A stretch of 64,000 bases of DNA, from the NCBI RefSeq assembly GCF_000003815.2, contig NC_049982.1, forward strand, positions 27,583,061-27,647,060, written 5' to 3'. The position numbers were made by a program, and so were the translations under genes. Shown here piece after piece: positions 12,501 through 63,179 of this stretch (position 1 is the stretch's first letter; each line of letters opens with the position of its first letter). The notes under the pieces are model-generated. The model was not told the origin of the DNA and made no database searches. It was given only the letters and a program-made list of their open reading frames with translations. Source of the stretch: Branchiostoma floridae (Eukaryota > Chordata > Leptocardii > Amphioxiformes > Branchiostomatidae).

Positions 12501-15500
12501 GATAATTGCTGGAAAGAGATGACAAAGATTTGGTTCTTAACTATTTTCTAAAAGATGCAGAGCACCTCGTATCCTGTTAACAGTTGGCTAATATTAGCAC
12601 ATTGTCAGAGAAGCCCTTCAAATTACACAATATAATACACATTGGAATGTAGGCTGAACTGAACTGAACTGATGTAGGCACATTGTCATTGGTATAACAG
12701 TTGAAACTTATATTTTGCTTGTCTTCAGGTATATGCAAAGCTGGACATTTCTCCACCAATGGCCTGGCTCCCTGTACACCGTGTCCACTAGGGGAATATC
12801 AGCCTACAGAGCAGAGCACATCTTGTCTTCAGTGTCCACTCGGGTACACTACAGCATCAAATGCCTCGGAAAGCAGCACAGACTGTTTCAGTAAGTGCAC
12901 CAGTGTGCTAATTCGTATCTCATTCTGTCTCAATGTCGTATGTCATTGTCTACTACGCATGTTATAAACTAATGTTGTCAAGATCATGCTATGTTTAAAA
13001 TATGTTGCAAGCTCCGATTTTTTTATTTCTATTAGCTTTAAAACTTACACCCGGAGCCAATTTTATTGGATCGGCAAGACACTGGATAAGAAAGCTATTT
13101 GTACACAGCACACACCAGAGTTTTATTCAAGACGAACTGCTACATGTTACCTTCCTCAGGGCGATTCTGATAGGTAGTGTTACACTGTGCAGGTAGGTGT
13201 CGCTGCTAACAGATGCGGCCCCAAACGTAAACTTTCACAAATATTAACACATATCCGTAGAAAGGTGGCCATGCGGTATTTATCATTAGAGGCTTTAGAG
13301 GCTTTATTTCGTCCATTAGCAGAGAGATACAAACATGAGGCTCCATACAGCCCTCAAACATTCTGGGTGTCATTCAATACATGACAGTGTAATCAATAAT
13401 TTTTTTGGACCTTTGGTATTCTTTTAAGGTTAAACTTTAAAATTAGTCACCGATACTATGTATGTAATTTGATATTCATTAATCACAAACATTGTTTCAA
13501 CCAACAGATATTGATGACTGTGTTTCATCTCCGTGTATCAACAACGGTACTTGCTCGGACAGAATCAACGCGTACCTGTGTCACTGCCTGGACGGATTTG
13601 TAGGTATGCTGTGTGTTATATCTGTCAACATGTGATGCCAACGGTTCCAGGCCTTAGGGCGTGGTCACTAAGTTTTGACACTTTGAATGACAAAAATGTA
13701 CGTCTCCTGCAAAGTTCAATTATCTTGGTGCACAAATTGCATGCTGTTTTGGATCCATATCAGTAAAATCGTACGACGACCGCACGATCTATGTGACGGC
13801 GCCCTTAATGTTAAGGCTTCTTAAAGTCCTGTCATAATGATTAAAGTTTTCGTAAGATCGTCGAAGTCGTGCGATCTTAAAGTTATCATATTCTTGAAAT
13901 AACCGTAAGTGTGCCACACGAATTTTTGCTGTCTTAGTACAGAAAAAGCTATTGGCGCTTGCCTCTGTTACATGCACTGTCTGCTTGAAATCAAAATCGT
14001 ATGACGAATCAGATGCTTACTTCAAACAGTTTAATTTTATTATTAGGCTGCTTAGATTGAGCTTTAAGCTGCCTTCATTTGGCCTTAGTCCTCACAGCAA
14101 GATATGCAATTGTCTGGTCAGTTTTGCTCTTGCTAAATCAGGAATAATATCAAATCAACCATGTTCCTTTTCGCAGGTAACGATTGTGAGACAGATATTG
14201 ACGAGTGCTCGTCTGGCCCCTGTGTGAATGGATCCTGTACAGACGAGATAGACGGTTACACCTGCGTCTGCTACCTGGGATTTACGGGAGAGGACTGCTC
14301 AACAGATATTGACTACTGTGAAGTTAACCCCTGTTCCAACGGGGCACAATGCGTCGATGGTGTTGATTCCTTCAGGTATGTGTAAAGTTATCCTGCCTTG
14401 CACTGTGGGCCTTCATTTTCTTTCAGCCCCTTGTAGTGCCATGTGGGAATTTTCCTTACTGTGTCAGTAGAAGGGTATATTTACAGGGATATGCTTCCCT
14501 TCCCCTTTAACGTGCTCGAGGTACCTTATTGATTACGGGACTCCATTCTACGTCCCTCCCGAAAGACGGATGCAACCCTAACCGAGATGCCTTACCCAGG
14601 ATTGAACCGGGGTCTCCCAGTTACCAAGTAATTGGAACCTGAGGAGCTCAACTTTGAGGCTGCTATTAATTGTGCTACAGGAACATCCATATCGTTGACC
14701 TTACTATACATATAGTACACTCTGGTATCATACAATGTATGTTACTTCAATTTTGTAGACAGGTCAAAGGCTTTATTTTTTAGTTTTCAAATCTGTACCG
14801 TTTGGTTTTGTTGAATAAACGAGCTTATCTACGAAACAAGCATCTTCGAATCGTGAAAAATGAACTGATTGTCATGTAAACAACGAGGAGTAGAGTAACT
14901 GCAATGAATTTTCGATACCTCTGAATATGTTTTTATAGGTGTGATTGCCTAAGTGGCTACAGTGGCGTGTTGTGCGACGTAGAAGTAAACGAGTGTGAAC
15001 CCAGTCCATGTGAAAACAATGCAACCTGTAGTGACCTGGTGGGCAGCTATGTTTGCAACTGCAATCCAGGATATACAGGTAATAAGCAACTACATGCATA
15101 TCAGAAAACAAAATACTGCATGTATATTCTTTCATACCTTTTGAAACGAAGTTGGAATCCTGCTGTGTACATGGTGATGTGTACATGATGATGCGTACAT
15201 TGAAATATTGCAATACATAGAGAGCTGACAGTAGTATAAAACGTGGTCCTTCTAACATGTTCGCATAGATTATGCTAATGGTATGAGTTATTCACACCTA
15301 AAAGAGAAAACGACAACCATAGAATTACAACCATAAATTATCACTGAACAGAATATATTTTGGTCAGTATTTACTCCCGTTTCATGGTCAAAACAATGCG
15401 TGATTTTTTGACAGTCAAATTTCTGGATGCTATAGTGAATGAGACGTCACTTATTGTTTCCAGGAACACATTGTGAACAGAACATCGATGACTGCGACGT

Positions 15501-18500
15501 ATCGCCATGTGTAAATGGTGGAACATGCATCGACGGTATCAACTCCTACACATGCCTTTGTGTCGAAGGTTTCACGAACGACGACTGTGAACTCAATGTC
15601 GATGACTGTGCATCTGCACCATGTGCTAACAATGGCACATGTGTAGATGCAGTGGCCGGCTACACGTGTGAATGTGTATCGGGATACGCAGGTACAAACT
15701 GCACAGAAGATGCAAACGAGTGCTCGTCGTCGCCTTGTCAGAATGACGGGACATGCGAGGACCTGTTTGACTCTTATGCCTGTACCTGCAACCAAGGCTA
15801 CACAGGAGTCCACTGCGAGTCAGAGATCGACCATTGTGCCACCTCCCCTTGCTCTAACGATGCAACCTGCGTAAATACGTACTTGGACTTTGAATGCCGG
15901 TGTAGTCCAGGATATGAGGGCTTGAAATGTGAGGTAGAAATCGACGAATGTGCCTCCAGCCCGTGCGTTAACAATGGCAGCTGTTACGACCAGGTTGATG
16001 GCTGTATCTGCATTTGCACCGACGAGTTCACAGGTCAGACAATCATGGTGTTATCAAAAGTAAAACAGGTGTACTGCTGATATGCTTAAAAAATCATGAT
16101 TATGTTTATCTTTGGGGAAGGGAATAATATTTTTTTTTGCTTCCCTTCTTCCTCGTTTCCTTCTTCTTCTCCTCCAAACAAACAAGTTTGATGACCTGGA
16201 CCAGATGGCTATCGTCACTATTACTGGTAACGTTAGATACCCTGTGGTATTCGGTTACGCCATGCAGCAAGTGGCAACTGCCATGATATGGGCAGAGTAG
16301 AAAATGCCCTGACACACTTGCTACATGACGTAACCGAATACCACAGGGTGTTTAAAGTTACCAGTAATAGTGGCGATAGCCATAATGTCCTGGTCATTGA
16401 TCTTATTTGAGGAGAAGAAGAAATGGATCGGATGTTGGATGTGCTGATCACTATTTATACAAATGTCTCTGAGTAAAGATAAACAGAGCAGTAGTTTGCT
16501 AGGCCAGACCATGTAAAGATAAAGATGTAATCGCTTTCAAATTCACTTTCTACGTCATAATATTTTTGCTGAAAGTACTATGTGCATTGTTTCCTCGTCT
16601 CTGCCCAGCTCATGACAGTTTTTCTTATGCATACACATGTAAATAACATCCTGTAAACTACACGTAATGCCTACACTAACAAAGGTTTCATTTATTACAC
16701 AGGGACAAACTGTGAGTCCAACTTTAGCCCATGTGAGCCTGCTCCTTGCCACAATGGAGCAATCTGCACTGATAAGCACCCGGACTATGAATGCATCTGC
16801 CCGACTGGTTTTGGTGGTTCTACCTGTAGCATCAACCTACCAGAATGTGCGTCCGGCCCTTGTAACAATGGGGGCACGTGTGTAGACGGAATAGGCAACT
16901 TCTCTTGTAGGTAGGTATTTTATTATTTTAAAATCAGAAGTTTTTTTTCCCTGCAAAAACCTAATCTATTAACAACAGGGGCCACTCGATTAATCTAAAC
17001 GTTAACCACAAAAGTAAGGGCAAAAAAGACTCGAAGTTTATCACGAGAGTTCAGTTGTGTTTGTAAATAACATTTTGAATGAAGACTGGAGGAGGGTATT
17101 CGAGTACTCCGCCCGGCATTAAAAAGGGACGGGGGGCGAAACAGTTTACCTAGCACATGCGACCCGTTGTTGCTGAGTCACGTGCCTCTAACGTCACGTC
17201 CCGGAAGTAGCAGTAGACAGGTCCATTCCATAAGAAAGGATGGAGGAGTTCCAATTCTTCTAAGTATTGGTTTTGTAAACTTTCAGTAAGATCTCACTCA
17301 AGATTACAGGATTAGATATTTCACTGTCTTTGTCTTCCTATAGCTGCCCATCCGGTTTTGAAGGTGATCTTTGCGAGGCTCAAATCAACGAGTGTGCTAG
17401 GCATGGCTGTGAGAATGGCGGAACGTGCACGGACACGTACGGGAGATTTGACTGCGACTGCCCGCTAGGATACAACGGAACACGCTGTGAAGTCAACATA
17501 GACGACTGTGCAACGCACGGTTGCACCAACGGTTCAGATTGTGTTGATGGGGTCGCTTCATACACCTGCGATTGCTTATCAGGTGAGATATATTTTTATT
17601 TCCTACGCATATAGTGTACGTAAATGCATTTAAGTTCGCGGGGATTTAATTTCGCGGCAGCGGGAAATTGGAGTGTTCGCGGTGGTTTTAAATTCGCGAT
17701 AGCGCTATCCCACGAACATATTTGCAGCACTGTACTGTAGTCGCATACTGTAGTATGAATATTCGCGATGGTTTTAAGTTCGCAGTTCAGTGGCCACCGT
17801 GAAAACCGCGAATACAAAACCACCGCGAAAGTTTCTGCATTTACAGTATTCCAAACTCAAACCCAAACAGATAATTTTTTTATTACATGATGCACACGTG
17901 AGAGTTGTAGCATTTCTCATTAATCATGCGAAGTATGCAATTGAAAGAAACCTGCTAGAGGGCCAAAACCTATATCACTTTGTACCTATGTATTAATGTT
18001 ACAACATTACAATTGCAAATCATTTTTTTCTGTTACTTTAAGGCTATACTGGACCAACATGTTCGGAGGACGTAGATGAGTGTTCCTCTAACCCGTGTCT
18101 TAACGCAATCAAGTGCAACAACCTCGTCGATGACTACATGTGCGAGTGCCAAAATGGCTTCACGGGGAAGAACTGTGAGATCAACATGGACGACTGTGAG
18201 AACGTCACCTGCTTCAACGGTGGAGAATGTGTGGATGAAGTAGCCGGATTCATCTGCAACTGTCCTGATGGCTTCCATGGTAGTATTTGTGAGACTGAAG
18301 TGGATGAGTGCTCTTCAGGTATGTGATTTTTTTATTATTTCTTATTTTTTATTATTTATTGCAACATATATTTACAAGACATGGTGGCGACACACTCAAG
18401 TCATAACTTATATTAATGCCGCCACCGAAAACAAAATAACAAATAAGGAAAGCACTGAAGCGAAATTTACAAATAAAAATTCAAAGATATAAACTGATGA

Positions 18501-21500
18501 TATGATAATTAACTAAGTCCCCTAAGACTGGTAGGATGATGTTAAATCGTTCTTGAAGCGATCGCTATCTATAAAAAAATTTGCACATACATTAATATTT
18601 TGGAGTTTTTTGCCGAGGACAGAAAAGAAGACCCCTTTAAAAGCAACTGTAATAAAGTGTCACCAGATGGATTGTCCATATCAAAACCTACCAGTCTTCT
18701 CAAATTGCCGAAGATGGAAGCTCTCTGTTGAGTGTAGTGCAACATATGTACAACATATGCAATGTAAATTGTTCATCTGATACCCCAACACAATCATAAT
18801 GCAAAGTTTACATTTTCAAACAAAAGTGTTTATTTTCTACGTAACAAGTAAATACAATAAGCGAAAAAAATAATAATGAAAATAACAAAAGAGGCCAGAT
18901 TATTAAAAGCTTAGATGTTGGCCACTCAAAGAACTAATTTTACAGTTCAAGTGAAATAATTCAAATTAGTTATTGCAAAAAAAAAACATATTACGTACGA
19001 AGGAAAATATCAGGTCAATAATGACATCAACATATTAAGTGAAGTAATAAAAAAGATAATGGTTAGAACATTTATCACAGTTACGCATGATAAACCAACG
19101 TCACACAAAGTGATAGTAAACCATATAGCAAATAAATGTATTGTAGATCTTTCTATGTAATATAGTCAGATCTTTTCCCGGACAATTCAGGTAAAAGAAC
19201 TACTTCATATAGCATTTACTTTCTGGTGATAGTCACAGTCCATGTCCGTGTTACATTGTACTACGTTGTGTCCAACAGACCCTTGCCAGTACTCTGGAAC
19301 CTGTATGGATGCCGTTAACAGCTACAGTTGCCAGTGTCAGACTGGATACAATGGAACAAACTGTGAACTGGACATTGATGAATGTATCAATTCACCGTGT
19401 AAGAATGCAGCTCCATGCAGCAACACACATGGGGATTACAGGTAAAGTTTTGCATATGAACTGATTTTTTTTTCTTTGGGGCCGAACTTTCTCTCCTGAA
19501 ACTATGGACAAAGTGTTAACTGTACAACTTAAAGCGAATACCAAACCTATTCTTGCCTTTACTTTTCACCATATATGTAATACTTTATATTTCATATTCA
19601 TATCTTAATATATTGATATTTCTGGTGATGCTTCTTGATGCTGATGCTGAAGTTAACGCAGTTCCAAGTATCATAAGATAGAAATCTAAATTAAAATATT
19701 CTGTAATGACCTTGTCTGATCCTAACCACTTGTCATCACAGCAGCTGTGATGTTTGTGTTAGATTCAGATCAGAAATGGCCGAGGCTGATAAAAAAAATA
19801 CAGAAAATAGAGCATTTAGGCAGTCATAAGATGGAGGACTGTGCCGTAGGACAGAATTCTCACATCTCAAGATAGATTAAAGCTTGAACCCTACACTGTC
19901 CTGTCTAATCTTGACCACTGGTCAGTACATCAACTGTGGTGTTTGTGTTTTATTTATTGATGACCCTCGACTGGTCCACCGCTTTGTACAGAGAACTCAG
20001 CGTTGATACTATCGGTATTGTGCATTTATTAAGAGGCATTTCTACTGTCTAGCACCAGATGATTCGGTGATAGTCTGACCATGACCACTGGTCATTGCTT
20101 TAAATATGGATGTTGTGTTGGATCCAGATCAGATATAGCCTAAGGCTGACGCAAAAATTTGTACAAAGAATTTAGCTTTGATGCAGTCAACCCCGAACCA
20201 TAAGATAAAATTCTAGCATCTAAAGATAGCCAGAAGTAATAGTAAAATAAAGAAATCCCTGCCCTTCCCTGTCTAATCTTGGCAACTAGTAACTTTTTCA
20301 GCAAGCGTGGTGCTTGTGTTAGATTCATTGATGTTCTGATATCCACCTTCGACCCCATACAGAGAATTCACATTTGATGGCATCGGTTGTGTTCCATAAG
20401 ATGCATTCTTAGCATCCATGGATTCACTGAGAATCTGAGCCTGCCCTAGCCGATGTGCCTGATCACTAGTCATTACAGTAGTGTTAGTGTTTTTGTTGGA
20501 TTCAGGGATGTTCTGATACTGACCTACGGCCCTGTACAGAGAATTCACATTTGATGGAATAGGCTGTGTTTCATAAGATGCATTTCTAGCATCCATGGAT
20601 TCACTAAGAATCTGAGCCTGTCCTAGCCGGTATGCCTGATCATCATCACTAGTCATTACAGTAGTGTTAGTGTTTTTGTTGGATTCAGGGATGTTCTGAT
20701 ACTGACCCACGGCTCTATATAAAGAATTCACATTTGATGGAATCGGTTGTGTTCCATAAGATGCATTCTTAGCATCCAAAGATTCACTGAGAATCTGAGC
20801 CTGCCCTAGCCGATGTGCCTGATCACTAGTCATTACAGTAGTGTTAGTGTTTTTGTTGGATTCAGTGATGTTCTGATATCCACCCTCGACCCCATACAGA
20901 GAATTCACATTTGATGGAATCGGCTGTGTTCCATAAGATGCATTCTTAGCATCCATGGATTCACTGAGAATCTGAGCCTGCCCTAGCCGATGTGCCTGAT
21001 CACTAGTCATTTCAGTAGTGTTAGTGTTTTTGTTGGATTCAGGGATGTTCTGATACCGAACCTGGTCTGCCTTATCATGCCCACCTGTCACTACAGAAGC
21101 TGTGGTGTTTGTGTTAGATTCAGCGATGGCCTGAGACTGACCCTGCCCTGTCTGATTATGTTTGTTCATGTCTTCATACTGGTTATCATGGCCACTAGCA
21201 GCAGTTGTGACCTTTGTGTTAGATTTAGTCACCTGTTCCTGACCTTTCTGATTATGTTGGTTCAAATCTTCATAATGATGACCATGGCCACTAGCTGCAA
21301 GCACACCAGTGTTTATTTTTGTTTCAGTGATGGCGTGAGGCCGGTCCTGCCGTTTTAAATTATGCTGGTTGTCCACATCTTCATACTGGTGGTCATCACC
21401 ACTGACCATTGCTATGGTGTTGGTGTTGGACTCAGTAACGGCCTGAGACTGACTCTGCCCTGCCCTGTAGTGATTATTGGTCATCACAGTAACTGTGGGG

Positions 21501-24500
21501 TTGTTGAGGGCAAATTTGTTTTTTCTAATCCCAGTAAGAAGATTCACACCCCTCCTCTTGTACCAGACTATGAAAGCAATGGCAACAGTGAGAGTTACCA
21601 ATGAACCAATAACAGTTGAAGTGATTACAGTTTTGTTGAGGCTGGGACAAGATTCACGGCAAGTGGTAGCAATCAGAGTACTGGTAACATTATTTAGTAG
21701 CACCTTTCTCTGTGTGTCATTAGGCATCGTGGCAAATATCGAGCCAACATTGCGTCTGAAGTACCAGTGATAGTGATATGTGCCATCATGGCTATTGTTA
21801 CTATCGATAGCACTGCGCCATTGTGTATCATCGGACAGATTGGCAAATTTGGAGCTTACAGTTTGTGCTGTTTGGCCAGTATTGCTAGCAGTATTGCCAG
21901 ATGGAGAAGATGTTGACATTTTGGATGAAGTAAATGAGGCGTGTTTATCAGTTGTTGTTATTATTATTGTTGTTGATTTAATTTGGTCGTTACAAATCAT
22001 ATCTTTTGGGTTGACGTCTTTAAGTTTTTGTCTCGGAGGTTGAGCACATATTATCTGATCTACAAATGATTTGATCCGTTTAAAGGGAACCATCCTACAG
22101 TCGCAATGCCAAGGGTTGTCGCCAATACGTAACGTCCGAATGGATGCGAACACGTCATAATCTGACAGGGGGAGGGAAGTTATCTTGTTGGATTTCAAAT
22201 CTAGAGTTTGAAGCTTGGGTAGGTTTGAGAAAGCTTCAGGCTGAATCTCACCTATCATGTTACAGCACAATTCCAAATTTTTGAGCTCGGGTAGATTTAT
22301 GAATATGCCTGATTGGATGTGGGTTAGCTGGTTATAGTCGATTTGCAAAATTATGAGCTTGCGTAGATTTGAGAAAACACCAGTCTGAATGCTGGTTATC
22401 CTATTCATGCTTAGGCTCAGAAAAACAAGCTGGGGGTTGTTTGAGAACGCACCTTGATGGATGTGAGTTATCAAGTTGCGGAAAAGAGCCAAATATGTGA
22501 GTTTGGGTAGGTGTGAGAGTGATGGAACAGTACGCATGCAGTTTTGGTCCAACTCTAAGTGGGAGACCGAAGTTGGGATGTCCACCTGATCTATACTGGT
22601 GAGATCCAAGCTACGGTATATACAGGATGATGAAGATGTACAGCCAGCTTCTGGCATTTTGGGTTCCTTCATGATGATAAGAAGAAAAATCAGCAGGTGC
22701 CGCAGCTTTCTTCCCATGTTATCCTGCTATCGTAATGGAACAAGGAATAGGAATAAATCAAAACAAGGCAATCGATATCACAGTCAATTATGTATAGACT
22801 TTTCCACATTGTAGTTCATATGAACGCATTATGAAGGCATCAAAATGAAATTGTTTTCTATCATTATAAAAGTGATTACATAAGATGTTATTGTTATCAT
22901 ATGTAATTAAGATACAAGTAAATGTGAAAAATACATTGTTAGAGCCGAAAATAGCGATGTCATCAAAAATGCCTCTCATCATGCGGTTGGCAAAAAATTG
23001 GAAAATTTTTTAAAACTTTGTGAAATTGTTGTCAACTAGATTTTAGAAGAACTCACTGAATTTGGTGGCTGTAGCATAAGCCGATCTGGCGTTATGCGAC
23101 ATCAAAGATAGCATAGGCCTCAAAAGACCCCCATCTGAATAGGGCTGAAAATGGGTGATAGTTGTGAGTAGAAAGCAGGAGAAAGGGCCTTAACATACGC
23201 CATACTGAGCCACTAAGCACAAAATTGAAGAACAGTTTCTCTGCTCCAATACCAATTTTTAATGCAATTTGTAACTTAAATAAAACAGAGAAATACCTTT
23301 CGGAAAGACTACAAAACAATTATCAAACATTCTAAACGGAATTATAAAGTCAATCTATTACGTGATCTAGAAAAATACAAAATACCATCAGTACATAAGA
23401 AAAAAAAACAGAAAACAGCATTTTCTTATGCACTTGTTTTTTCACATGAAGCAATTTGTGTATGATGCGTTGTTACCCATAGTGCCCCGTTTGTCCCAGC
23501 ATGTAATGAAATCAGTCTATGAGCACAATCAATATGTAGGTGGTAAGCCTGTTCTGTATAAGTGTTCTTTATACATATGTCTTGCGTGACAAACAGTTTT
23601 AAATCAGTCTGAGTCGGCATATTTCCATATCAATATTGATGAGCACTTCTCGTTAAAAGTTGGTGTAGATTTGCAGGCAACAGGCTCTTGTTTCTTACAT
23701 CAACACCTCTTGTCCCTTACACATAACAAATTAAACGACATATTTAGTCTTACTTAATATGGTTCTTCAAATATGGTCCATGTCTAGCTACACTACACGA
23801 AATCTGATCTTCTTAAGCATAGTTTTATAAAAAAAACGCATATTTATGCACGCCTTAAAGCGTGTTCACTGATTGAATTCCGTGCAGTGCTATTTGAATA
23901 TTAATGTTAAGCAAGCTGTTTACTACAATGTTTTTACGGACAGTCTTTATTTTTATATGTAATTGTATTTGGACCTCTCAGATTTGAAGACAATGATAGA
24001 GAAATGGTTTTGCCTTATTGGATATAATATTGGCGTCTCCAAAATTAAAGCTCATGTGAAAATTGATGTTCCAATTCTATGTCAAAAGGGAAAAACTCTT
24101 GCATACCAACAAACCAGAATTATTCATATCTTTTTTATATTTTGATGGAAAAGCATCTGGTATAACATGAAGTCCATTAATTGGAGCTTTTTTCTTGTTC
24201 ATGTTAGCTAAAAAAAGAACCTTCGACTCGTACTTTCAAGCAAAAACATTCAATCCGAAGAAAAAATCGGCAGATATTTCATGTAAGACATCACGAAATC
24301 GCATGGATGCGGGGGCCTGTCGGGGTCTATGCCCGATCGCGCCGTCCATGTGTAAGCTCACTAAGCTAGCCTGGGTACCATCTGGAAAGTAGTTCGCTCC
24401 GGCGTTCATTATATACTATATACAGTCGCTTCTAGCTGTGACATTCATTATACACTATATACAGTCGCTCCTCTGTGTTTCCGTCTGGGAACGCGGACCA

Positions 24501-27500
24501 TCTTAACGTCTGGAATCGTCCAAATTTTGGACGCAGGCGCTGATTGGTCCCAACGTATGAGCGAATTATGGAATGGATTCAAGCGCTCGTTCGAAGAGGC
24601 CTTTCATAACCGGACAGGCCCTCCGTCTGCTCGTGGAAGGCCTGTTGTCATCGAACAAGCGCTCTAGAACCCATTCCTACATTCGCTCATTAACTGAAGT
24701 TACCACCAAACGGTTTGAATGTGCAAGTCTCCAGACGGATAGCAGAAGCGAACATAGGAGCGACCTACTATCCGGATGGTACCCAGGCTATCACTAAGCT
24801 GCATCATCACGAAATGTGGCCAGTGATTTTGCAACATTAATATCAACCCAGGGGTACTGCAACCCCACGATTTATGGCATGTCGCTAAATTTAAGTGTAG
24901 TAAATCTAAACAAATTTACAGTATATTACAAGATACGTAAGTAAAACGTAGAAAATGCATTTTTTTCAGAAAAAAAAAACAATAAGACAACTATACATAC
25001 CTGCAAACTTATCTTTCAAGCTAGTGATTGTCTCTTCAGTTGGTTCTTTCCAAAGCTTTTTCAGTTGCAGTTGTGCCTGCTAGCTGCGAGTGGTGTGTGC
25101 CTTTCTCGTACCAATGTGACAAACAACCTTAGGTTAGTCTTACGTTTCTGGCGGTGCTGATTGTCTGAGCTCAGCTTCATGAATATTGGCGTTTATGAAC
25201 ATTATTATGACGATTGTATATATATATATATTTGTATGTTATGTATTGTTGATGGGTCATGTACTTTGTGTAACCCAGGGCCCCACTGTAAAGCAGTGAC
25301 TTACTTACACTGAGTTGGGTCACCCTGGCTAAAGAAAACAGAATAAAAAAAAATTGTTTCTCAAAATGGTGGTCTCTGAATTGCTTTGCCAGGCTAGGCG
25401 GTACCGATAACAATATAGAAGAAGTTTATTTGCAAATTCGTGCCCGAGGGCTAATTGCAAGTACATGGTATACACATAGTGACAATGGACAGTTATAAAC
25501 AATATTCTAATCTAATACTAGTGTTGGCTATTTCTAAACAGGTTGGGATTGACTTCTTTTTTGAAAGCAGAGGGAGACGAAAAGCCCCACATTTTCTATA
25601 ATTGATAACAATTCACTCAGCACGTAAACAGGGTGCGCAAACTCTGTGCAGTAAAATTGAAATTTCAGCTAAAAAAACTAACATAAGTGTTTCGCAAGGC
25701 ACAATAGTTATTCCTATGGTACTCGTTCCATCATTGTTTTTTACTGATCATTCGGCTATATGTTTAGATCCGGCAGCCTTCATATTGCTAAGATAGGTAA
25801 ATTACGTAAAAGATTTTGCTTTGTGATTAGAAAAGATAATAACACTCATGTTTAGCCCCACCTGACTGTATAGAGGTTTTCTTTTTATCCTATATTGTTT
25901 AGGAAAGATTTACACTGTATCCACTGTTTCTTTGTAGATTATATTTGTTCATACAAGAATTACTGTACTTTCTGTCGTGTCAATAAAGCTTGAGTTCATG
26001 AAGTTTTACTAATTTCAGAATCTGGTTATTTGATTAACAACATTTTTCAGGTGGCTCAATGAATGTTTTTGAACGCTATATCAGACAGATCAGATCGGGA
26101 ACTTCGCAGGGAAAAAAATTCGTACAGCATAATTTCTTGTGGGCTCTGAACTTGTTTTCATAATGTCCCATACCACTTTTAGTACAATCTGTTCCTTAAA
26201 TCAAACCAATAAATGAGTTTGGGAAATACAGAATGGCATCAGGGTTAACATTAGAACAATAACAAAAATACAAAATTTGTGTTTTGAAGGAAAAAGTATA
26301 AATTTTCACAGATCTTTTAGTTAATTTTCAAATGAATGTTTTGATTGAAAAGAAATTTTATCATTTTAAATGAAACTTGCACATACCTAAATACAACAAG
26401 AACCACGGTTATTTTCCATTTTGCGGGGAAAGCAACTGGTATAATATATGTAGTTCAGAACTGCAGAGTAATATCTTGTTCAGGTTGCTTTGAAATACCA
26501 ATCTACAATTCATATAAAAATAAAGCCATTCTGAGTATAATATGTAGATGTTTCCAAATTTTGACTGAATATAACACCAAAATTTTGTGTTATGTTCAGT
26601 CAAATTCAAAGGTTTGGATGCCCGTGTTGGACTTTTGATAAGACTTATTGTTCAACACGTTAGCTATATCAGTGGGTACACGTTACTGTAAATTGTGGAA
26701 TTTTTACAATGTTGTTAAGTTAACTACGACTAAATGTTTACAACCGTAAACATATTGTTCGTTTTCCATCGCGTTGTTATTTGTTATTTCAACAACTAAC
26801 TCAAAACGTCGTTTATGTCCCGTCGCTAAATTCTGAGGCCGCAACACAAACTGAATTTACAGTAGTTTACTGGATACGTAATGTAAAAGAATGTCTGCTG
26901 TCGTAAGAAAAAAAAAATCAAATATCATAAATTCTGCAAACTTACCTTGCAAGCTTCCTGGAGTATATTCAGTGGGTTCTTCTTGGGGTAGTGCGTTATG
27001 AAGGACTTTCTTCAGCCCTCTAGTTGCAATTTGCCTGACAACTACGAAGCTGGTGGGTAGTTTTTTTTTTTCACACCAATGTGACAAACAACATTAGATT
27101 AGTCATACTCGTTTAGCGTAGTGTTGATTGTCTGAGCTCAGTTTCATGAATATTGGCATTTATGATGATTGTAGGGATCATTTCTACGTAATTGTCATAC
27201 TGGTGGTTCCAGAATTTCTTCGCCTTTACCAACAACATTTTGTTTAGAAATCAAGCAGCGTCTACGTATCTTCAAATCTGCGCATTAAAGTCGGAATTCA
27301 AGAAATGCAAATGAAGAAATGTTTAATTGCGAGGCAGAATAGTAATTCCTGTGATAAGTGTGTCCTGTTAATCATTGGGGTTCTACAGATTGCAGAATAT
27401 GGCTGTTTCATTTCGTTTGATATTAACAGTTCACAGGTTGCTTACTCCCTCTTTGTTGTTTTTTACTGATGTTTTCAAGGCTATTTAGACCAATAAGGCG

Positions 27501-30500
27501 AGAAGCTTGGCAGAAAAAATGCCACTTAACTCTCATTTTACAGCGTAATTTCTCGTGGGTGCTGAAATTGTTTCCTGGTTTGAAAAATTTTCTTCTGGCC
27601 ACCTAATATATACTCATAAACACATATTACCTTGAAAATCAGTAAATGACTGTTATCAAATAGCTCACAAAGCGCTGTCTGCGTTTGTGTACTGTAAGAC
27701 ATCCACGTAAACAATATTAACTATAACTAGAAAAGCCGACATTTTCTTGAGAGAAAATACAGCATATTTCAGCCATACGCATTCCCATGCAATACTTAAC
27801 TGTTCCAAATCACCCCTGCGCGAAAATGGAACAATTTAACAGTATCTTCTCTGAAAAAATGTACTAATATTGTGAGTTGATTTTAGGTCAAAACGGAGCT
27901 TGCACAATATGCTCCGGGCCCATATGGAAGAATATACTTTTTTCCACAGGATCTTCTCTGGACCAACAACTTAACTTGATGTGGCTTTATCTATATATTT
28001 AATTTTCCTTCTTTGTTAAGCTTATTCTGTATACCACTATTAAACTGTTTTACTTTGTATGGAATCAGCCATCGGGCCTAATCTTGTCTTAGTGTAACAA
28101 TTTCGTGCGCGTAGCGTGCGAGACCCAGAGGATAGGAGTGTCAGAGGATTTCCGTTTTCGGAGGTCACCCTGGCACTGAGAGAATTTTATTGGTTTCAAA
28201 CTCTGGTAGTTTAAAGTTACTTACAATTTTAATTTTACGTCAAACAACAACAACACTAGAAACACCTACATTTGGTCGGGAGAAAATACAGCACTTTTTT
28301 CCAGTCCAGTGAGGGAAATGTGGCTACTATAGATAAGGTGGCCATTATAGAGAAAATGCTGATCTATTGACTAAGAGCAAGTTACACATGATATTAGTAC
28401 CCACTGATCTCTATGCATATAAATATTGTACAGGTAAGCCAATTGTTTAGATTTACGGTTCAATTAATTCTGAAGACAAATATTGATGACAAAATAATCA
28501 TTGTCACCACTGTCAAACTTACGTATCAAAACTAAACGCAACCTGGCCAATTTCTCCGCGATTTCTAGCCAAGAAGCATGATATCGATTGTCTCAAATAG
28601 CCCTGCTAAAATCAAATCTACCGAAAATGATTGATATTGCCATGCCGAATGTTGATAAATTCACCGACAAAGAATTGTACTCTAACGTCCAGGACCCACG
28701 TACCTTCCGCTACCGCCCAAATGACGCCGTAGTGAACTACAAATCCTCGCACTACGATTTTAAACCGGGCGCAGGTGACATACATCCACTGTATGGCCGC
28801 AATGTCTCTGTATGTACGGGATCGTGAAGCCCCGCTTATGAATATTAATTAGCCTTCGTCTTCGCTGATTGGCTGGCTCATTGATTCAACTACCTCTTAC
28901 TACGATTTTAAACCGGGCGCAGGTGACATGCATCCACTGTATGGCCGCAATGTCTCTGTATGTACGGGATCGTGAGGCCCCGCTTATGAATATCAATTAG
29001 CCTTTGTCTTCCTCTTCGCTGATTGGCTGGCTCATTGATTCAACCTCTTACTGGATCTGACACCGCAGCATGTGTGGGGCTCTGTGGGATCACGACTGGA
29101 GGCCGAAGGAAAATCAATTTCCCCTCAGAAAAGTGCCGAAATCAATCATTTTAAAGTGGTTTATGCCAAAATTTGTACTTGCCTTCAGTGCCTATCTATA
29201 CCAAATTTCATGTCATCTAATTGTAATACTAGGGTACTGGGAGTCGTTTTAAAAATGGTCTTAAATTGCAAAAAAACAACTCAATAAAATCATTTTAAAG
29301 GCGGATATGAAAAAATGAAGAAATAAAAACGCCTGAGTGCATTAGCCCATTTTACCATTGTGCGAAATGTCAGGTCATTCGGTCCAAGAACGACGGAGAT
29401 AACGTGCTTTGAAGATTTGACAGAAGAAAGATGAAACATTACAAATACAATATATTTCACCATACATGTGGTATGGCTGAAATATAAATACAACTCAATC
29501 TCCACAACTGGATATTTACTTCCGGACCTTTCCACTGACATCCATCACTCTCAGCGTCACTAGAATGAACTGGCAGAACAATTCGTTCCAAGTATTAGAA
29601 AACTGATATGTTCAACTGTTTTATTCCAGTTATCTGTAATTGTATCGAATTGAGAAATTTTTACATGGCTTTCTGTTCAGAAAGGGTTACCGCGGCTATG
29701 CATCTGCCATTGAGTCCAATTAATTTTTATCATATTTCAAACATCGAACGAAAGGTTCTGGTGTGACCTTAAGAAAATTATATTTTTATCATCATTATTC
29801 TTATATAATTGACACAATGCTATCAGAATCATTAGAAAACTGACATTTTCAACCATTATATTCCAGTTAAGAATGTCGAATTGAGAGAATTTTTGTTGCT
29901 TATATCCTTTCTTACATGGCTTTCTGCTCAAAAAGGGTTGGCTATGCATCTACCGATGCCATTTAGTCCAATGAATTTTTATAATATTTCAAACTCCAAA
30001 AGAAAGGTTCTTGTGTGACCTTAAGTCAATTATATTTTAATCATCATTATTCTTACAGAATTGACATAATGCTATCAGAAATGACACAATGATATCAGAA
30101 ATGACATAATGATATCAGAAATGACATAATGATATCAGAAATGACATTAAAGCCAGTGAGATTTTAATTTGATAAATGTGCTGGTTACATTGTTCCGATT
30201 ATACCCCTGTCACATTATCCACGATCTTCGGGGAAGGTCGGCCATATTTAAAATTGACAGAGGGTTGCACGTATTTTTCACCTGAAAACTGTCCCTGTCA
30301 CATATAAGCCAAACTTTGTACCTTGTACATTTGTTGTGCAATAAAGTTTTTTTTTCATTATAAGCGAGGCTCGGGCGATTGCTGCAGACTCGTCGTCCGA
30401 TCGATTGTCGCGCAATGTGACAGGGGTATTACAATTCATTCTTAGTTAAAGTGTTCTAATGATGTAAAAGTGTTCCATTAACCCGTGCACGTGTCTAAAC

Positions 30501-31632
30501 GCCTTGGAATGTAACAACTTGGGGTGGGTATAGTTACAGCGTGCTGGTATATAACGGGCTTTTAGTGTTGGACCGGTTAAAAAAACGGACATGAAAAAAA
30601 TCAGTGCACTGGATCTTCGACCGACTAGAAAATGAACAGAATATACCGGCATACGTTTAGAGGCTTGCCGGTCAAAGAAGGGCGAAGTAGAGTAGAGTAA
30701 ATTAGAGAAGTTTTTAGTCATTTCTACCAATCAAGTTTCTATAGTCAAACTTAGCAGTCTTTACACAGAGATAGAGTTTTAAAACGCCACCAAACAGATT
30801 CATTTTTAACGAAATGAACCGGACCTGGACCTGAATTTTCTGTATCGGTACCCACCCCTACAAACAAGTAAAATACAATAATCGAAAACATAGTAATGAA
30901 AATAACAAAAGAGGCCAAAATCTTGAAAGTTTAGAAGTTGCCCACCCAAAGAACTAATTTTACACTCAACTAGAAATAATTCAAATTAGGTATTGCAAAA
31001 TATTATGTACTAAGGAAATATCAGGTCAATAATGACATCAACATATTAAGTGAAGTAATGAAAGAGATAGTGGTTGAAACATTCATCACAACTACGCATG
31101 ATAAACCAACGTCACACAAAATGAGAGTAAACCATATCCAGGAAATACATTTTAGATCTTTGGATCTAACACATTAGTAATCGGATCTATTCACGGACAA
31201 TCCAGGTCTTTCTAATGAGTTAGGTAAAAGATCTACTTTATATAGCATTTACTTTCTAGTGATGGTCATAGTCCATCTCCGTGTTACATTGTACTACGTT
31301 GTGTCCAGTAGACCCTTGCCAGGCTTCTGGAACCTGCATTGATGCCGTTAACAGCTACAGTTGTCAATGCCAGACTGGATACAATGAAACAAATTGTGAA
31401 CGTATCATTGATGAATGTATCACTTCACCGTGTAAGAATGCAGCCCAATGCAGCAACACACATGGCGATTACAGGTAAAGTTTTGTATAAGAACTTATGT
31501 TTTTCTTTTGGGCCGAACTCTGTGCAGAGCTCCTGAAACTATGGATAAAGTGTTAACAGTACAACTTATAGCAGTACAAAATTTCTTTGCTTTAACTTTT
31601 CACTGTATATGCACCTACTTTATCTGTCTATA

Positions 31633-31698
<66 letters not shown>

Positions 31699-34600
31699 TA
31701 TTGGTATAATTTCTAACATTGCATTAAAAGTACTGGGTTTTTTTCTTGATGCTGATGCTGAAGCAGTCCCAAGATGTATCATAAGATAGAAATCTAGCAT
31801 ATTAAGATTCTGTAATGGCCCTGTATGATCTTGACCACTAGTCATCACAGCAGCTGTGATGACTAGTGGTCAAATGGCATGAGGCTGATAAAAAAATACA
31901 GAAAATGGAGCCTTGAGGCTGTCATAAGATGTGCCGTAAGACGGAATTCTAGCATCTAAAGATTAATTAAACAGCAACTGTGGTGTTTCTGTTGGTTATA
32001 ATAAAGGATTGTTTATTTATGTTTTGATCCGAGGAGGTTGTTTGATCCGACCACACACGGACCCGCCAGGGTCAGTTTAATTAGCTCCAGACAGGCGGGT
32101 TAGTCCGGGGCTTCATTCCCGGACCGCCTTACACGCGCGCGGACGCGAAACTCCTATCTCCCAGCGCGATTTCACGGCCTGAGACTGGTCCAACACTTTG
32201 TACAGGAAAAACAGCCTTCAGGCAGTAAATTGCAAGTAACATGCGACAGTATAATTCTGGACAAACATTCTAATTCCGGAAAACCTTAATAATTTCAAAA
32301 TAGATTAACCAGATGAATTAATATTTGTAGGTATGATATATCAAAGGACTAGAGTTCCACGACCCCATACCTTCGCCAAATGATCCTAACCTTTCTCTGC
32401 AACTGCTGTATTAATTGTGTTTGTCATTAATTATGCAAATAAGGTCCTCATTTGTATAAATTATATCAGTTGATCATCTCCTCCACCAGACAACAGAAGT
32501 GCGCAATCTATGTTAAGAAAGAAGGCTTTTATCGCATTTTCTGACAATTTATGCAAATGAGATCCTCATTTGCATAATTAATGTTCAACGATGCTCACCT
32601 GTATATAACTTCCAGATGCTACAAGTAAGAAGTTCCGGTCATTTAACAAAAAGAAAGTATAGCATTTTCTCATTCATTATGCAAATTAGGTCTTAATTTT
32701 GCATAATATATATCAATCAATATTCTTCTCCTTCTCAGTTACAAATGTCACATGTTGCAATGGTTCCATAATGGAACTGAGCGTGTTTACAAAATGTTCT
32801 TATTAATTATGCAAATTAGATACCAATTTGCATAATTAATATGTCATTATATAAATCACCACCTAAGCTATCTACATACCAAAAATCATAACAATCCGTT
32901 AACCCCTTCTTGAGTTATTCCCTTTTAAAGCCCGACACTAAACCTGCCTTGCAGTTCCAAAACAAGCCGCTAGGGGTCCAAACCTACACCACTTACTCTC
33001 GGCATCAAGAGCTGTCTACCACTAAAAAATCATAGCCACAGCATGTTCAGAACTCGAGATATCAAGCCAGGAAGTTCCGCTGCAGTACCGTAATAGGCCG
33101 CTAGGGGACCCAAAATCTAACCGTTTCCAGGACTAATGAAGACCTACCCACGTACCAAATACCAATACAATCCATGCAGGCGTTCTTGAGTTATGGTGTT
33201 TTCCTACAAACATACACACATACACACACACAAACGCTACCCAAAATATAACCTTCTTGGCGAAGGTAATAATGAATACGTAGGTTGCAATTAGATGTCT
33301 CTACGAAGAAAGGTCTGCAGAATTCTGACTCAGGGTCCAGAATTCTGGCTCAGGTTCCTAGAATTCTGGCAAAATTCTGCCTCACAGCCAGTATTCTGCC
33401 AGAATTGGCCTTCTTCATGGAGACATATAATTGCAACCTATATAATCATCATCCTTTGATGTATCATACCTACAAATATTAATTCATCTGGTTAATCTAT
33501 TTTGAAATAAATTAAGGTTTTCCGGAATTAAAGTGGTTGTCCGGAATTATATTGTCGCCTGTTAATTCTATTTTCTAGCATCAGATGGTTCGGTGATAGT
33601 CTGATCATCATCACTGGTCAATACTGCAACTGCAACTATGGCTATTGTGTTGGATTGACACTCGATCAGGAATGGTCTGAGGCTGGTCTCACACTTTGTA
33701 CAAATCTAGAGAATTAAGCTTTGGGTCAGTCGACTCTGTGCCTTAGATCAGTCTTGTGCAATAAGATACATTTCTTTTTTTGCTATTGTGTTGGATTCCG
33801 ATCAGAAATGGTCTGAGGCTGGTCCAACACTTTGTACATGGAATTTAGTTTTGAGGCAGTCGATCCTGGGCCATAAGAATTCGAGCCCCACCCTGTGCTT
33901 TCTAATCCTGCCCACTGGTAATTTTTTCAGCAGCTGCGGTGTTTGTGTAGGGTTTAGTGATGTCCTCATACGGACCCGCNNNNNNNNNNNNNNNNNNNNN
34001 NNNNNNNNNNNNNNNNNNNNNNNNNNNNNNNNNNNNNNNNNNNNNNNNNNNNNNNNNNNNNNNNNNNNNNNNNNNNNNNNNNNNNNNNNNNNNNNNNNNN
34101 NNNNNNNNNNNNNNNNNNNNNNNNNNNNNNNNNNNNNNNNNNNNNTTCTGATACTGACCCACGGACCTATACAGAGAATTCACATTTGATGGAATCGACC
34201 CTGTTCCATAAGATGCATTTCTAGCATCCAAGCCTAGAGCCTGTTCTACATGGTGTGCCTGATCATCACTAGTCATTACAGCAGCGTTAGGGTTTTTGTT
34301 GGATTCAGTGATGTTCTGATACTGACACGGCTCTGTCATATCATGCCCACTTGTCATTACAGCAGCTGTGGTGTTCGTGTTGGATTCAGCGATAGCCTGA
34401 GACTGGCCCTGCCCTGTCTGATTGTGTTTGGTCATATCTTCATACTGGCTATCATGACCACTAGCTACATCAACAGCCGTGGCCTTTGTGTTAGATTTAG
34501 TCAAGAAGTGGTGAGACGGTTCCTGACCTTTCTTGTTATGTTGGTTCATATCTTCATACTGACCACTAGTTGCAACTTCACCCGTGTTTATCTTTGTCTC

Positions 34601-37600
34601 AGTGATGGCGTGAGGCCGAACCTGCCGTTTTAAATTATGCTGGTTGTCCACATCTTCATACTGGTTATCATGACCACTGACCTCTGCCATTGCTGTGGTG
34701 TTTGTGTTGGCCTGAGACTGACCCTGCCCTGCTTGACCATTGGTCATAACAGTATCTATGGGGTTGGTGATGGCAAATTTTGTATTTCTAAACCCGGTAA
34801 GAAGGTTTTTGCCACTCCTCTTGCACCAGATTATGAAAGCGATGGCGACAGTGACAGTTACTAACGAACCAATAGCAGTTGATATGATTACAACTTGGTT
34901 GACGCTGGCACCAGATTCGTGGCGTGTGTTGGTAACAGGAGGTGGAGTAACAGCCATTGACACTTTCCTTCGTGTGTCATCAGTGCCAAATATCGAGCCA
35001 ACATTGCGTCTGAAGTACCACTGATAGTGATGGGAGTCATGGCTATTGTTATAATCGATAGCACTTGGCCATTGTGTATCATTGGACTGATTGGCAAATT
35101 TGGAGCTTACAGTATGTGCTGTTAGGCCAGTATTGCTAGCAGTATTGCCAGATGGAGGAGATGTTGGCACTGTGGATGAAGTGTATGGGGCGTGTTTATC
35201 AGCTGCTGTTTGAGAAGATGTTGACACTGTGGATGAACTGAATGGGGCGTGTTTATCAGCTGCTGTTTGAGAAGATGTTGACACTGTGGATGAAGTGTAT
35301 GGGGCGTGTTTATCAGCTTTTGTTGATTTCTCTTGGTCTTCACAAATCAAATCTTTGGGATGGACGTTTTTGAATTTTTGTCTGAAAAGGTTGGGAGGCT
35401 TATCACATATTAACTCGTTTATAAAGGGAATAAAGGGAATTATCTTAAAGGGAACCATTCTACAGTCACACTGCCAGGGGTTGTCGCCAATGTGTAACAT
35501 TTGAATGGATGCGAACACGTTATATTCTGACAGAGGGAAGGAAGATATCTGGTTTGTCTGTAGATTCAAATTTTGGAGGTTGGGTAGATTTGAAAATGTG
35601 CCAGACAGGATTTTAGTTATCCGGTTCTTGCCCAGATTCAAAATTTTGAGGTTTGGAAGATTCGAGAGTGCGGCAGCCTGAACCATAGTTATCATGTTTT
35701 CTTCAAGGATTAAAACTTGGAGCTTAGTTAGATTTGAGAACACTTCAGACTCAATCTCGCCTATCTTATTACGGCACAGATGCAAATGTTTGAGCTCGGG
35801 CAGGTTTACGAATACACCTGACGAGATGTGAGTAAGCTGGTTACTGTTCAGGTACAAAAATTGGAGCTTGATTTGCTTTGAGAAAGCACCAACCTGAATG
35901 CTTCTTATCTTGTTTGCGGCAAGGTCCAAAAAACAAAGCTTGGGTTGATTTGAGAATGTACTTTGTTGTATGTTAGTTAACAAGTTGCGGCCAAGATCCA
36001 TATATGTGAGATTGGTAAGATTTGAGAGTGATGTAATACTACTTATGCGGTTACTTCCTAACTCTAAGTGGCAGACAGATGTTGGGATGTCCACTTGTTC
36101 CATGCTGGTGAGACCCCGTCTGCGGTATGTGCAGACTGGGGAGGATACGCCTGTGCAGTCAGCTTCTGGCANNNNNNNNNNNNNNNNNNNNNNNNNNNNN
36201 NNNNNNNNNNNNNNNNNNNNNNNNNNNNNNNNNNNNNNNNNNNNNNNNNNNNNNNNNNNNNNNNNNNNNNNNNNNNNNNNNNNNNNNNNNNNNNNNNNNN
36301 NNNNNNNNNNNNNNNNNNNNNNNNNNNNNNNNNNNNNNNNNNNNNNNNNNNNNNNNNNNNNNNNNNNNNNNNNNNNNNNNNNNNNNNNNNNNNNNNNCGC
36401 CATTTTTGTACAATGGTTCTTGTTCCGTATGTTGTTGCTTTATCTGAAGCTTCTGCAAGGTGCCATCTCCCTTAAGTAGCTTCTGAGATATTGACAATCC
36501 AACATACTGTAAATGCAGAAATGTTCGCGGTGGATTAATGTTGTGACCACTTCAACTCGAACTTAAAACCAACATTTTTCTAGTATGGTATCAGACTGCA
36601 ATTTATGGTGTTACCGCGAACTTAAATCCACCGCGAAAAGTCCATTTTCCCGCTACCGCGAAATTAAATCCCCGCGAACTTACATTCATTTACAGTAATC
36701 ATGTCCCTTTTCGAAAGCGCTATAACGTTACAAGCATGTAATAAATCATTTTTCTCAACAATAAAACCGAAAAATGAATTTTGGAAATACAAAATACATC
36801 AGTACGTTAGAAAAATAACAGAAAACGGCATTACATTATCCCCCTTTTTTTATAACATACAGCATACATTTGTGTTTGTAAATTAAAAAAAAAAAAGAAT
36901 TATTACACTGCATGATACGATACCCATAGTACCCCGTTTCTCCCAGCATATAATGAAATCAGTCTATAAACCAATCAATGTGTAGCTGGTAAGCTTGTTC
37001 TGACCAGTTGATCTTTATACATGTCTTACGTGTAGACGTGACAAACAATTTTAAATCAGTCTGAGTCGGCATATTTCCATATCAACATTGATAAGCACTT
37101 ATTTCTTGTTTAAATTCTTGGTGCAAAGTAGTAGGAAACATGCACCTGTTTCTTACAAGATCAACACTTGAATCTGACGTCGTACTTAGTATTCTAAATG
37201 TGGTTCTTCAAAATATTGTCTGTTTCTAGCTACACTACACGAAATCTGATATTCTTAAGCATAGTTTTATCAAAACACGCCTTTTTGTATACCTTAAAGC
37301 GTGTGTACTGATTGGTTTTCGTGGAGTGCTATTTGAATATTAATGTTAAAATACGTTGTGTCAATGTACAATGTGTCACTGACTCTCTTTGAATTTATGT
37401 ATGACGCTATGTAGACCTCTCAGATTTGGGCGACATTAATAGAAAAAAAAATAATTTCGCCATTCTTATAGAATATCATATTGGCTTCTCCCACATTATA
37501 TTTCGTGTGGAAATTGATGATCCAATTAAAAAGAAGTTATATGGCAAATGAGAAAAAAATGAAACTATTGCACACACACCTGAACACAATACGGATTCAT

Positions 37601-40600
37601 TTGGGCATTTTCGGTGGGAAAGTAAATAGCATAATGTGAAGTTCGTTCGAGGGATATTTGCATTCGCACCCATTCATGCTGTCTCATAATAACAAACTGT
37701 GGATGCAACTTGTAATTTTAGACAAAATATTCCAAATGTAATCTGTGGAAGGTTTTCAACATTAATTTCAACCGAGAGATACTGCAAACTCTTGATTGAT
37801 GACATGTCGCTAAATTTAAGTGCAGCTAATATAAACAACTTAACAGCATATTACGTGACGCAGAAAATGCATTTTTTTTTCAGAAAAAACAACAACAACA
37901 AAACACTTATACATACCTGCAAACTTACCTTTCACGCTTGCGACAGTATCTTCAGTTGGTTCTTTCCGGAACTTCTTCAGCCCTCTAGTTGCAATTGTGC
38001 CTGTTAGCTGCGACCGTTTGGGTACCTTTCTCCTACCAATGTGACAAACAACCTTAGATTAGTCTTACGTTTCTGCTGATGCTGATTGTCTGAGCCCAGC
38101 TTCATGAATATTGGCGTTTATGAAAAATGTAATGGCGATTTCTATATGCTTTTCAAAACGGTGGACTCTCTATTGCTTTGCCAGGCGGTGCCAATAACAT
38201 TTCACTCAGCATGTAAACAGAGTAAACAATCTCTGTGCAGTAAAATAGGAATTTCAACAATCTCAAACAAGTGTTTTGCAAGGCACAATAGTAATTCCTG
38301 TGATATTCGCTCCATCATTGACATGAAGTCTTATTAATTGTCAGAATCTGGCTATTTGATTATAAACATTTTCTAGGTGACTGTTGCTTCCTAATGATGG
38401 TTTTTAAACGCTATTTTAAACGTACAGCATAATTTTTCTTGGGCTCTGAACTTGTTTTTAGTAATGCCCCTTACCAATTTTAGTGCAATCCGTTCCTCAG
38501 ATCAAACCGAGAAATGAGTTTTATAATTACAGAATGGCATCCGTGTTAATATTAGAACAATAACAAAATTTAACATCAGAAAAATGGCATTAGAAAAATA
38601 TTATTCCCCTTGTTGTTGTTAAACATGCACCAGTTTGTGTTTTGAAGTTTTTAAATTTTGACAATGTTTTGAAGTTAATTATGACTATATGTTCACAAAC
38701 GTAAACAAATGGTCCGTCTTCCATTCTGTTATTAGTTGTTATTTTACAGTATCTTACAAGATACGTGATGTAGGAAATGTCTGCTGTCGTACGAAAAAAA
38801 GTACCAAACATTATATATTCTGCAAACTTACCTTTCTAGCTTGTCAGAGTATGTTCAGTGTTTTTTTCTGGGGTAGCGCGTTATGAGGGAGATCCTCCAG
38901 CCCTCCCCTTGCGATTCTGCCTGCCAACTACGAATGTTGGGTAGCTTTTTTGGTACCAATGCAACAAGCAACATTTTATTAGTCATACTTTTAGGGTGGT
39001 GTTGATTGTCTGAGCTCAGCTCCATGAATATTGTCGTTTATGATGATTGTAGGGATCGTTTCTACTTAATTGTCAAACTGTTGGGCCCAGAATTTCTCTG
39101 CCTTTACCGACAACATTTCCTTTAGAAATCAAGCAGCGACTACGTATATTTAAATCTGCGTAGTTAAGTCGGAATTCAAGAAATGCAAATAAAGAAGTGT
39201 TTATTGTGAGGTACAATTATACTTATTCATGTGATGAGTGTGTATTGTTTATCATTGGGGTTTTACTGATTGCAGAATACTTAATATAATAATGCTAATG
39301 ATGATAACAATAATAACACATTCAGGCAGTGGATCAACTTAAAATCAAAGTAACGAAAAGTGGAATTTGCATATCAATGTGTCGCTGGTCGGGCAGTGTT
39401 TGTTATAAAGTTGATTTGCAAATGAAAAATAACAGTCAGAAGAGAACATAAATGTCAGTCTTAGCATCAAACATAATACAAAAATCAAACAAAAGTTTCC
39501 ACTGTGATATGACAGGAACTAAAGTTAAAATATATACAATCAGAATCCTTTAGTCCTGGTCATAAAATCGTTTAAACTGTGACACTGTCCTCGCAGATCT
39601 TAATTGGGACGACAGGGAATTCCAGAGCACCGCCCCTGAGTATGAAAAAGCTTTCTTTCTATATTTAGATTTACACAATGCTATGGTCAAATGAAGTCAT
39701 AAAAATGTCACAACGGCTGGGCATCTGTCGAAGCCCTTGTGTCCAGTCTGTTATTGTCACACTTTAAAATTCGACGAAGGAAACGTTTTCGCACACCCAA
39801 CACCGTCGATCTATTTAGGTCTGCCATTAGACTAATCATATTCCGGTACGGGGCGTAACATATTGTTGTATTACACTCCATATCACAGGAGTGGGAGAGA
39901 AATATTTTGATTTTCTTTATGCTCAATATCCTCTTTCTTTTCCTTAATGTACTATCATTTGATTAAATTGACTAGTCTCTGTCATTTGGGGGAACATTGG
40001 CTACAAATGTGGCACATGAGGTGAGTAGACAGATATTCCCAGGGTACTAGGTTTTCATTTACTTTTTGTATAGGCCTATTGTCTTACTTTGCTTCAAGTC
40101 TAGTGTTTAAATGTAATAAACAACTTATGTCTTTGCAGTTGTGCTTGTCTTTCTGGGTACGAAGGGAAGGACTGTGACGGGAATATTGACGACTGCCAGG
40201 TGCATGCCTGCCAGAACAACGGCACCTGTGTCGACCAGCTCAATAACTACACCTGCCAATGCGCAGCAGGGTTTACAGGTAACTCGACATCAGCTTATGC
40301 ATGTGTATTATATATGGTCAACTGTATGATTCAAAATATAAGTACCCTGTAGTAGATGCCACCAAAACTTTCCAGTGTTTTTCTTTTCCATAGCAGGTCT
40401 TTAACCCTCAAGCATCCGACTTTTTTTGTGACTAAAATGACCGAGTTTGGTCCAATTGGACCCAATTTTGTTTCGTCAATAAATGCACCTTTTTTTACAT
40501 TGTTTTGGTAATCTTTACAGATACCAATTATGAAAATAGTTGTGTAATTTGTATAATAGATACGAAAGCACCAGGTATATTTTGCGGTTAACAGTATGAC

Positions 40601-55453: not shown

Positions 55454-62748
<7,295 letters not shown>

Positions 62749-63079: not shown

Positions 63080-63179
63080 NNNNNNNNNNNNNNNNNNNNN
63101 NNNNNNNNNNNNNNNNNNNNNNNNNNNNNNNNNNNNNNNNNNNNNNNNNNNNNNNNNNNNNNNNNNNNNNNNNNNNNNN
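63080..63179. other. Assembly gap (100 N)
   Basis: Exactly 100 N, a typical scaffold-join placeholder, just before the satellite array. Confidence 0.99.

Follow-up and report, generated by a model that had tools for sequence, protein, structure and literature searches.

We examined a 64,000-nucleotide stretch of the Branchiostoma floridae genome (contig NC_049982.1, positions 27,583,061 to 27,647,060 of the forward strand; hereafter, the window), in which a large receptor-like gene carries two similar copies, 26a and 26b, of one EGF-encoding exon. Pieces of the window match the HYR, Sushi, ephrin-receptor-like, EGF, and pentraxin families in Pfam, and the host gene is probably a lancelet HYR/Sushi/EGF/pentraxin cell-surface receptor. 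The best homologue listed was a B. floridae protein of 2401 amino acids, described as “neurogenic locus notch homolog protein 1-like” (hereafter, P0101), with 81% identity in the best local match. Residues 114-2347 of P0101 align to positions 354-49047 of the window in 31 collinear matches, with a mean identity of ~77%. Among the best 120 matches per query, no other orthologous lancelet protein could be recognized by identity (these were drawn from 6347 matches for the 26a query and from 2601 for the 26b query, where P0101-sized proteins fell outside the length limits). SVEP1, or polydom, is a secreted protein with an N-terminal VWA domain. The window pieces share the SVEP1/polydom-like domain set, and we did not file the gene as SVEP1. 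In P0101, whose architecture is SVEP1/polydom-like, Pfam listed HYR, Sushi, EGF, and Pentaxin domains and no Ephrin_rec_like domain; no VWA match was found, and the start of the protein looks incomplete. Unlike the secreted SVEP1, P0101 ends, by eye, in an apparent transmembrane segment followed by a tail.

The duplicated exon lies between two exons that we numbered 25 and 27, all on the forward strand. Exon 25 (18043..18318) encodes EGF repeats, matches P0101 up to residue 1585, and leaves phase 1 at the donor CAG/gtatgt. Exons 26a (19279..19441) and 26b (31312..31474) are each 163 nt long (166 nt for 26b if it starts at 31309) and run from phase 1 to phase 2; 26a encodes the larger part of one EGF plus the first half of the one after it. 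Exon 27 (40139..40278) runs from phase 2 to phase 1, and supplies the second half of the EGF begun by exon 26 along with most of the following one. The two copies are identical at 145 of 163 bases in a gap-free alignment, and each keeps its GT/AG splice sites, an open frame, and all eight cysteines of the exon peptide. A preliminary description of this DNA had given these coordinates, splice sites, phases, and open frames and an identity of ~89%, all of which were borne out by the alignment and by spliced translation. Scanning positions 18319-40138 for phase 1 to phase 2 exons yielded 162 candidates, among which the two copies scored 32.4 and 27.4 (24.3 for 26b with the 31312 start) and the next candidate 7.7; the signal of the pair exceeds chance. 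The scores for splicing and coding are simple measures of our own making, based on consensus frequencies. P0101 shares the HYR, Sushi, EGF, and pentraxin domains of the window gene but contains exactly one exon-26 peptide, located between the peptides of exons 25 and 27, compared with two copies in the window. This peptide agrees with 26a at 50 of 55 residues and with 26b at 44 of 55.

Spliced translation revealed how the two copies constrain each other. Exon 25 joined to either 26a alone or 26b alone, and then to the four exons from 27 on, gave an open frame of 312 codons (313 for 26b with the 31309 start). When both copies were included (25-26a-26b, 31312 start), translation reached a stop ~10 codons inside 26b, with several junctions still downstream, and when exon 25 was joined directly to exon 27, it stopped in the exon after 27 (40922-41035). 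Since 163 leaves a remainder of one when divided by three, a productive message needs a number of exon 26 copies that equals 1 modulo 3. The earlier claim that exactly one copy must be included thus holds for productive messages, but phase does not force the choice of the spliceosome, and calling the arrangement a complete switch was an overstatement: phase filters messages after splicing and selects no exon. The two exons have the sequence characteristics of a frame-incompatible exclusive pair, being neighboring, similar, and of equal phase, with joint inclusion (computed with the 31312 start) or joint skipping leading to a premature stop. Short of an unrecognized microexon, the frame argument holds. 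Exon pairs running from phase 1 to 2 and from 2 to 1, and splitting one EGF between them, recur in this gene at 14177-17582 and 41507-42221; these exons would also be frame-asymmetric if duplicated.

An exon that restores the frame between the copies would allow 26a and 26b to be used together. Relaxed enumeration of the region between them produced 107 candidate phase 2 to phase 1 exons and no convincing linking exon, and comparing the exon 26 and exon 27 peptides with this region by tblastn gave only short, weak matches (best E 0.08). No copy of exon 27 was found in the first duplicated block by self-comparison or tblastn. A home-made gene model had joined 26a to 26b through a 53-nt “exon” (21535-21587), which we rejected, as it scored negatively and lies antisense to a nested LRR open reading frame (ORF), described below. 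This model was rough: it missed host exons later revealed by the comparison with P0101 and carried at least one other doubtful short exon, at 43107-43153.

Self-comparison of the window showed that the duplication is not confined to the exon but spans a collinear tandem block of ~8.5 kb. Copy A (18843..27399), delimited by collinear self-matches and alignment, contains 26a and its flanks, and includes stretches that do not align to copy B; copy B (30863..39279), delimited in the same way, contains 26b and its flanks. The duplicated region begins 525 bp past exon 25 and stops 860 bp short of exon 27; apart from exon 26, no host exon was found in either block. The copies are separated by a spacer of ~3.5 kb (27400..30862) with internal local repeats; no EGF exon was found in it, and the self-comparison, at its threshold, gave no counterpart of it past copy B. 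In five alignable intron stretches, the blocks differ by 14-22% substitutions, and indels are frequent.

Each block also carries a nested intronless ORF, located downstream of exon 26 in the same intron and antisense to the host gene. ORF A (20273..22726, reverse strand) spans 817 amino acids from stop to stop, with its first methionine at residue 4, and encodes a leucine-rich-repeat (LRR) ectodomain (Pfam LRR_8, 5.4e-37). Its paralogue, ORF B (33902..36439, reverse strand), comprises 845 codons, including two runs of N at 33980-34145 and 36172-36397, and matches LRR_8 at 1.1e-63 over 33905-36169. By eye, both encode a transmembrane segment plus a tail with many tyrosine motifs, and ORF A has LRRCT-like cysteines; a tandem repeat of 177 bp lies in frame within the tail of ORF A. 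Of 100 listed matches to ORF A, the top 29 are all Branchiostoma proteins, at 29-41% identity, and 27 of these 29 have listed LRR domains. Four NCBI-derived B. floridae entries among the matches, selected by eye, come from contigs that differ in length from the contig of P0101, a weak hint that no LRR gene is annotated in the corresponding intron there. From their sequence, the two ORFs look like LRR transmembrane-receptor genes of an immune-like kind. Over 604 aligned residues, the encoded proteins show 66.6% identity. By the NG86 method, the exon has a synonymous divergence (dS) of 0.36 and the nested LRR ORF one of 0.38, a similarity that fits a single duplication of the whole block. Copying of the entire block is evident from the alignment, and we infer that it took place in one event.

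These observations led us to the following explanation, to which we assign a probability of roughly 55%. A tandem duplication within the intron would have copied exon 26, its flanks, and the intronless antisense LRR-receptor gene together. Exon 26 is entered in phase 1 and left in phase 2, an asymmetry that preserves the frame only where a message contains exactly one copy; messages with both copies or neither encounter early stops and would presumably be removed by nonsense-mediated decay. Exon 26b would then be a derived, minor alternative that changes one EGF region by the loss of a calcium-ligand acidic residue, a glycine-to-glutamate replacement, and possibly one additional residue. Some messages probably include it under the control of ordinary splicing factors, while wrong combinations are eliminated by frame and decay. 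The likely ingredients of this control are weak acceptors, the usual regulatory proteins, and the decay of messages that combine the exons wrongly. Exclusion by steric hindrance or by a mixture of U2 and U12 sites was not indicated. The intron between 26a and 26b measures 11.9 kb, so splicing of one to the other is sterically possible, and all the splice sites concerned are GT-AG and, by eye, look U2-like rather than matching the U12 motif.

The additional residue stems from the acceptor of 26b, which reads ccagtag (31306-31311) and thus offers a CAG three bases upstream of the TAG; 26a has CAACAG at this position. Splicing at the upstream site would start the exon at 31309, yielding a 166-nt 26b with one extra valine and an unchanged phase, and the valine could fall between the first two EGF cysteines. 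The preliminary description was right about the end and phase of 26b, and its start may need amending in light of this CAG/TAG tandem acceptor. The upstream CAG scores 0.8, compared with -0.3 for the TAG. A pure (AT)29 microsatellite lies at 31636-31693, soon after 26b; none was listed after 26a.

Is 26b maintained, or is it decaying? The exon pair has a nonsynonymous divergence (dN) of 0.07 and a dS of 0.28 by maximum likelihood to 0.36 by NG86, giving dN/dS ratios of 0.26 and 0.19, respectively. In simulations in which one copy evolved neutrally and the other at a dN/dS (omega) of 0.05-0.3, seven or fewer amino-acid differences arose in 0.9-2.4% of runs (1500 simulations each), whereas with both copies at an omega of 0.2-0.3 this was the case in 18-45%. 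Moreover, exon 26 accumulated no indels between the copies, compared with 3.3 expected from the flanks (P = 0.037), although for one branch taken alone the indel-free status has a P of about 0.19. The dN/dS of 0.19-0.26 suggested strong constraint on both copies, a reading that was weakened once the outgroup placed all polarizable changes in 26b. We thus consider 26a to be probably the default exon, retaining the ancestral sequence, and 26b to be either a derived alternative or else a passenger or poison exon.

Several results weigh against the use of 26b as a regulated alternative. With P0101 as the outgroup, six of six polarizable residue changes occurred in 26b and none in 26a (exact P = 0.031), although this count would not be a rate test if the duplication predates the species split, leaving the P0101 copy orthologous to 26a alone; of the other residue sites, one could not be polarized, and at four only P0101 differs. 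At least two of the six changes fall at conserved EGF positions. The changes in 26b include a glycine-to-glutamate replacement and the loss of an acidic residue, which affect the GYxGxxC glycine and the first D of DIDEC, the latter a calcium-ligand position in calcium-binding EGF domains. Base divergence is not significantly lower in the exon (11.0%) than in its flanks (14.7%; Fisher P = 0.25). When 26b was simulated as a neutral branch with 9-13 substitutions, its frame and all cysteines survived in 10-22% of runs, and in 2-18% there were also seven or fewer residue changes; this frame-and-cysteine test is itself biased, as the finding was selected for its open frame. The acceptors of 26a (1.0) and of 26b (-0.3 and 0.8) are among the lowest of the 21 scored entries, the TAG acceptor at 31312 being the lowest of all. 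A search for docking and selector arms, comparing the unduplicated intron stretches 18319-18842 and 39280-40138 with the nearby flanks of 26a and 26b, detected no signal above shuffled sequences, which did as well in 10 of 12 and 7 of 12 cases. Finally, the top linker candidate, a 29-nt microexon at 27024-27052, could formally join the copies, with a score of 12.0 compared with 24.3-69.7 for real exons scored alongside. Pfam, for its part, did not register a loss of calcium binding in 26b: EGF_CA scored 66.0 bits for the 26a isoform and 67.1 for the 26b isoform, whose best match begins one profile position later. The best EGF_CA stretch of P0101 (residues 1617-1649) is the EGF built from exons 26 and 27, the one altered in 26b.

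Much of this evidence would also be expected if 26b were a mere passenger of the block duplication, for which selection favoring an additional LRR receptor may have been responsible. The exon would then be skipped or included at noise level and decay slowly, with 26a alone making the protein. The concentration in 26b of all polarizable changes, among them those at the conserved EGF glycine and the calcium-ligand position, agrees with this scenario, as do the bottom-ranking acceptor at 31312, the single-copy P0101 model with its closer resemblance to 26a, and the rapid divergence of the nested LRR pair (dN/dS 0.52-0.65). Yet 26b has preserved its frame, its eight cysteines, its donor and acceptor, and its freedom from indels, and the model with one neutral copy fits poorly. 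In addition, a 26b still spliced after 26a would waste messages, such that loss of its splice sites might be expected. We regard the passenger scenario as doubtful, but as a possibility to be taken seriously.

The same joint splicing could instead be the very function of 26b. As a poison exon, it would be included after 26a, introduce the stop ~10 codons in, and lower receptor expression through decay, which would have regulatory value. The position of that stop, upstream of several junctions, suits such a role, as do the 11.9-kb intron, which imposes no steric block, and the location of exon 27, 20.7 kb from 26a. A poison exon, however, needs neither an open phase 1 to phase 2 frame nor its cysteines, and 26b keeps both, which makes this role distinctly improbable. 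The two blocks might also be divergent haplotypes placed in tandem by the assembly, as the preliminary description had allowed. Lancelets are reported to have a heterozygosity of 3.2-4.2% (PMC12500494) and much presence/absence variation (PMC12373286), and two N runs fall within copy B. Nevertheless, no N run occurs at the block edges or in the spacer, and the intron divergence and the difference between the LRR proteins amount to several times this heterozygosity. The blocks are therefore probably paralogous, and an assembly artifact has only a very slim chance of being the explanation.

The use of 26b as a derived alternative would place the pair alongside known exclusive exons. The IIIb and IIIc exons of FGFR2 are an exclusive pair that arose by tandem duplication, and their joint inclusion shifts the frame. 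Exclusive exons of the frame-incompatible class are well established (PMC5740500; PMC6071210); what is unusual here is the origin, with the exon and a nested gene duplicated together. Within a human set of exclusive exons derived from tandem duplication, a frameshift leading to decay is listed among the modes of control (PMC5740500). Human frame-incompatible exclusive exons resemble 26a and 26b in being homologous neighbors of equal length and phase, with a length that is not a multiple of three and with a stop following joint use or skipping. Unlike them, 26a and 26b are 12 kb apart, belong to an ~8.5-kb unit with a complete antisense ORF, and are a pair predicted from sequence. Decay and duplicated stem arms have also been discussed for exclusive exons (PMC6071210). 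In the Dscam-type docking/selector systems treated in that source, as in our case, an exon is duplicated with adjacent intron, a proposed route to competing RNA arms; unlike these systems, 26a and 26b lacked arm pairing above shuffled controls in the two unduplicated intron stretches. Among the papers listed, judging by titles and abstract openings, we found none on the 26a/26b pair, nor any that combines a nested gene, a duplicated exon, mutual exclusivity, and an intron.

Elsewhere in the window, a 348-amino-acid ORF (57090-58133, reverse strand) matches cytochrome P450 (3.8e-25) and probably belongs to a neighboring gene. A tandem array occupies 63208-63969, with a repeat unit of ~136 bp, and adjoins an N run at 63080-63179.

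Exons 26a and 26b provide a candidate case of exclusive exons in a non-vertebrate chordate that can be put to a sharp test. If 26b is used, a calcium-binding EGF would be swapped for one that lacks a ligand, which could alter the stiffness of the EGF rod. A broader idea, speculative and rather unlikely, is that selection or drift on LRR-gene copy number drags the frame-asymmetric host exon along, each block duplication automatically creating a choice between exclusive exons. If this is true, and if block number varies among lancelets, the splicing repertoire of the host gene would track immune-gene copy number. More generally, the locus indicates that exclusive-exon pairs can arise as a by-product of the duplication of a gene nested in an intron.

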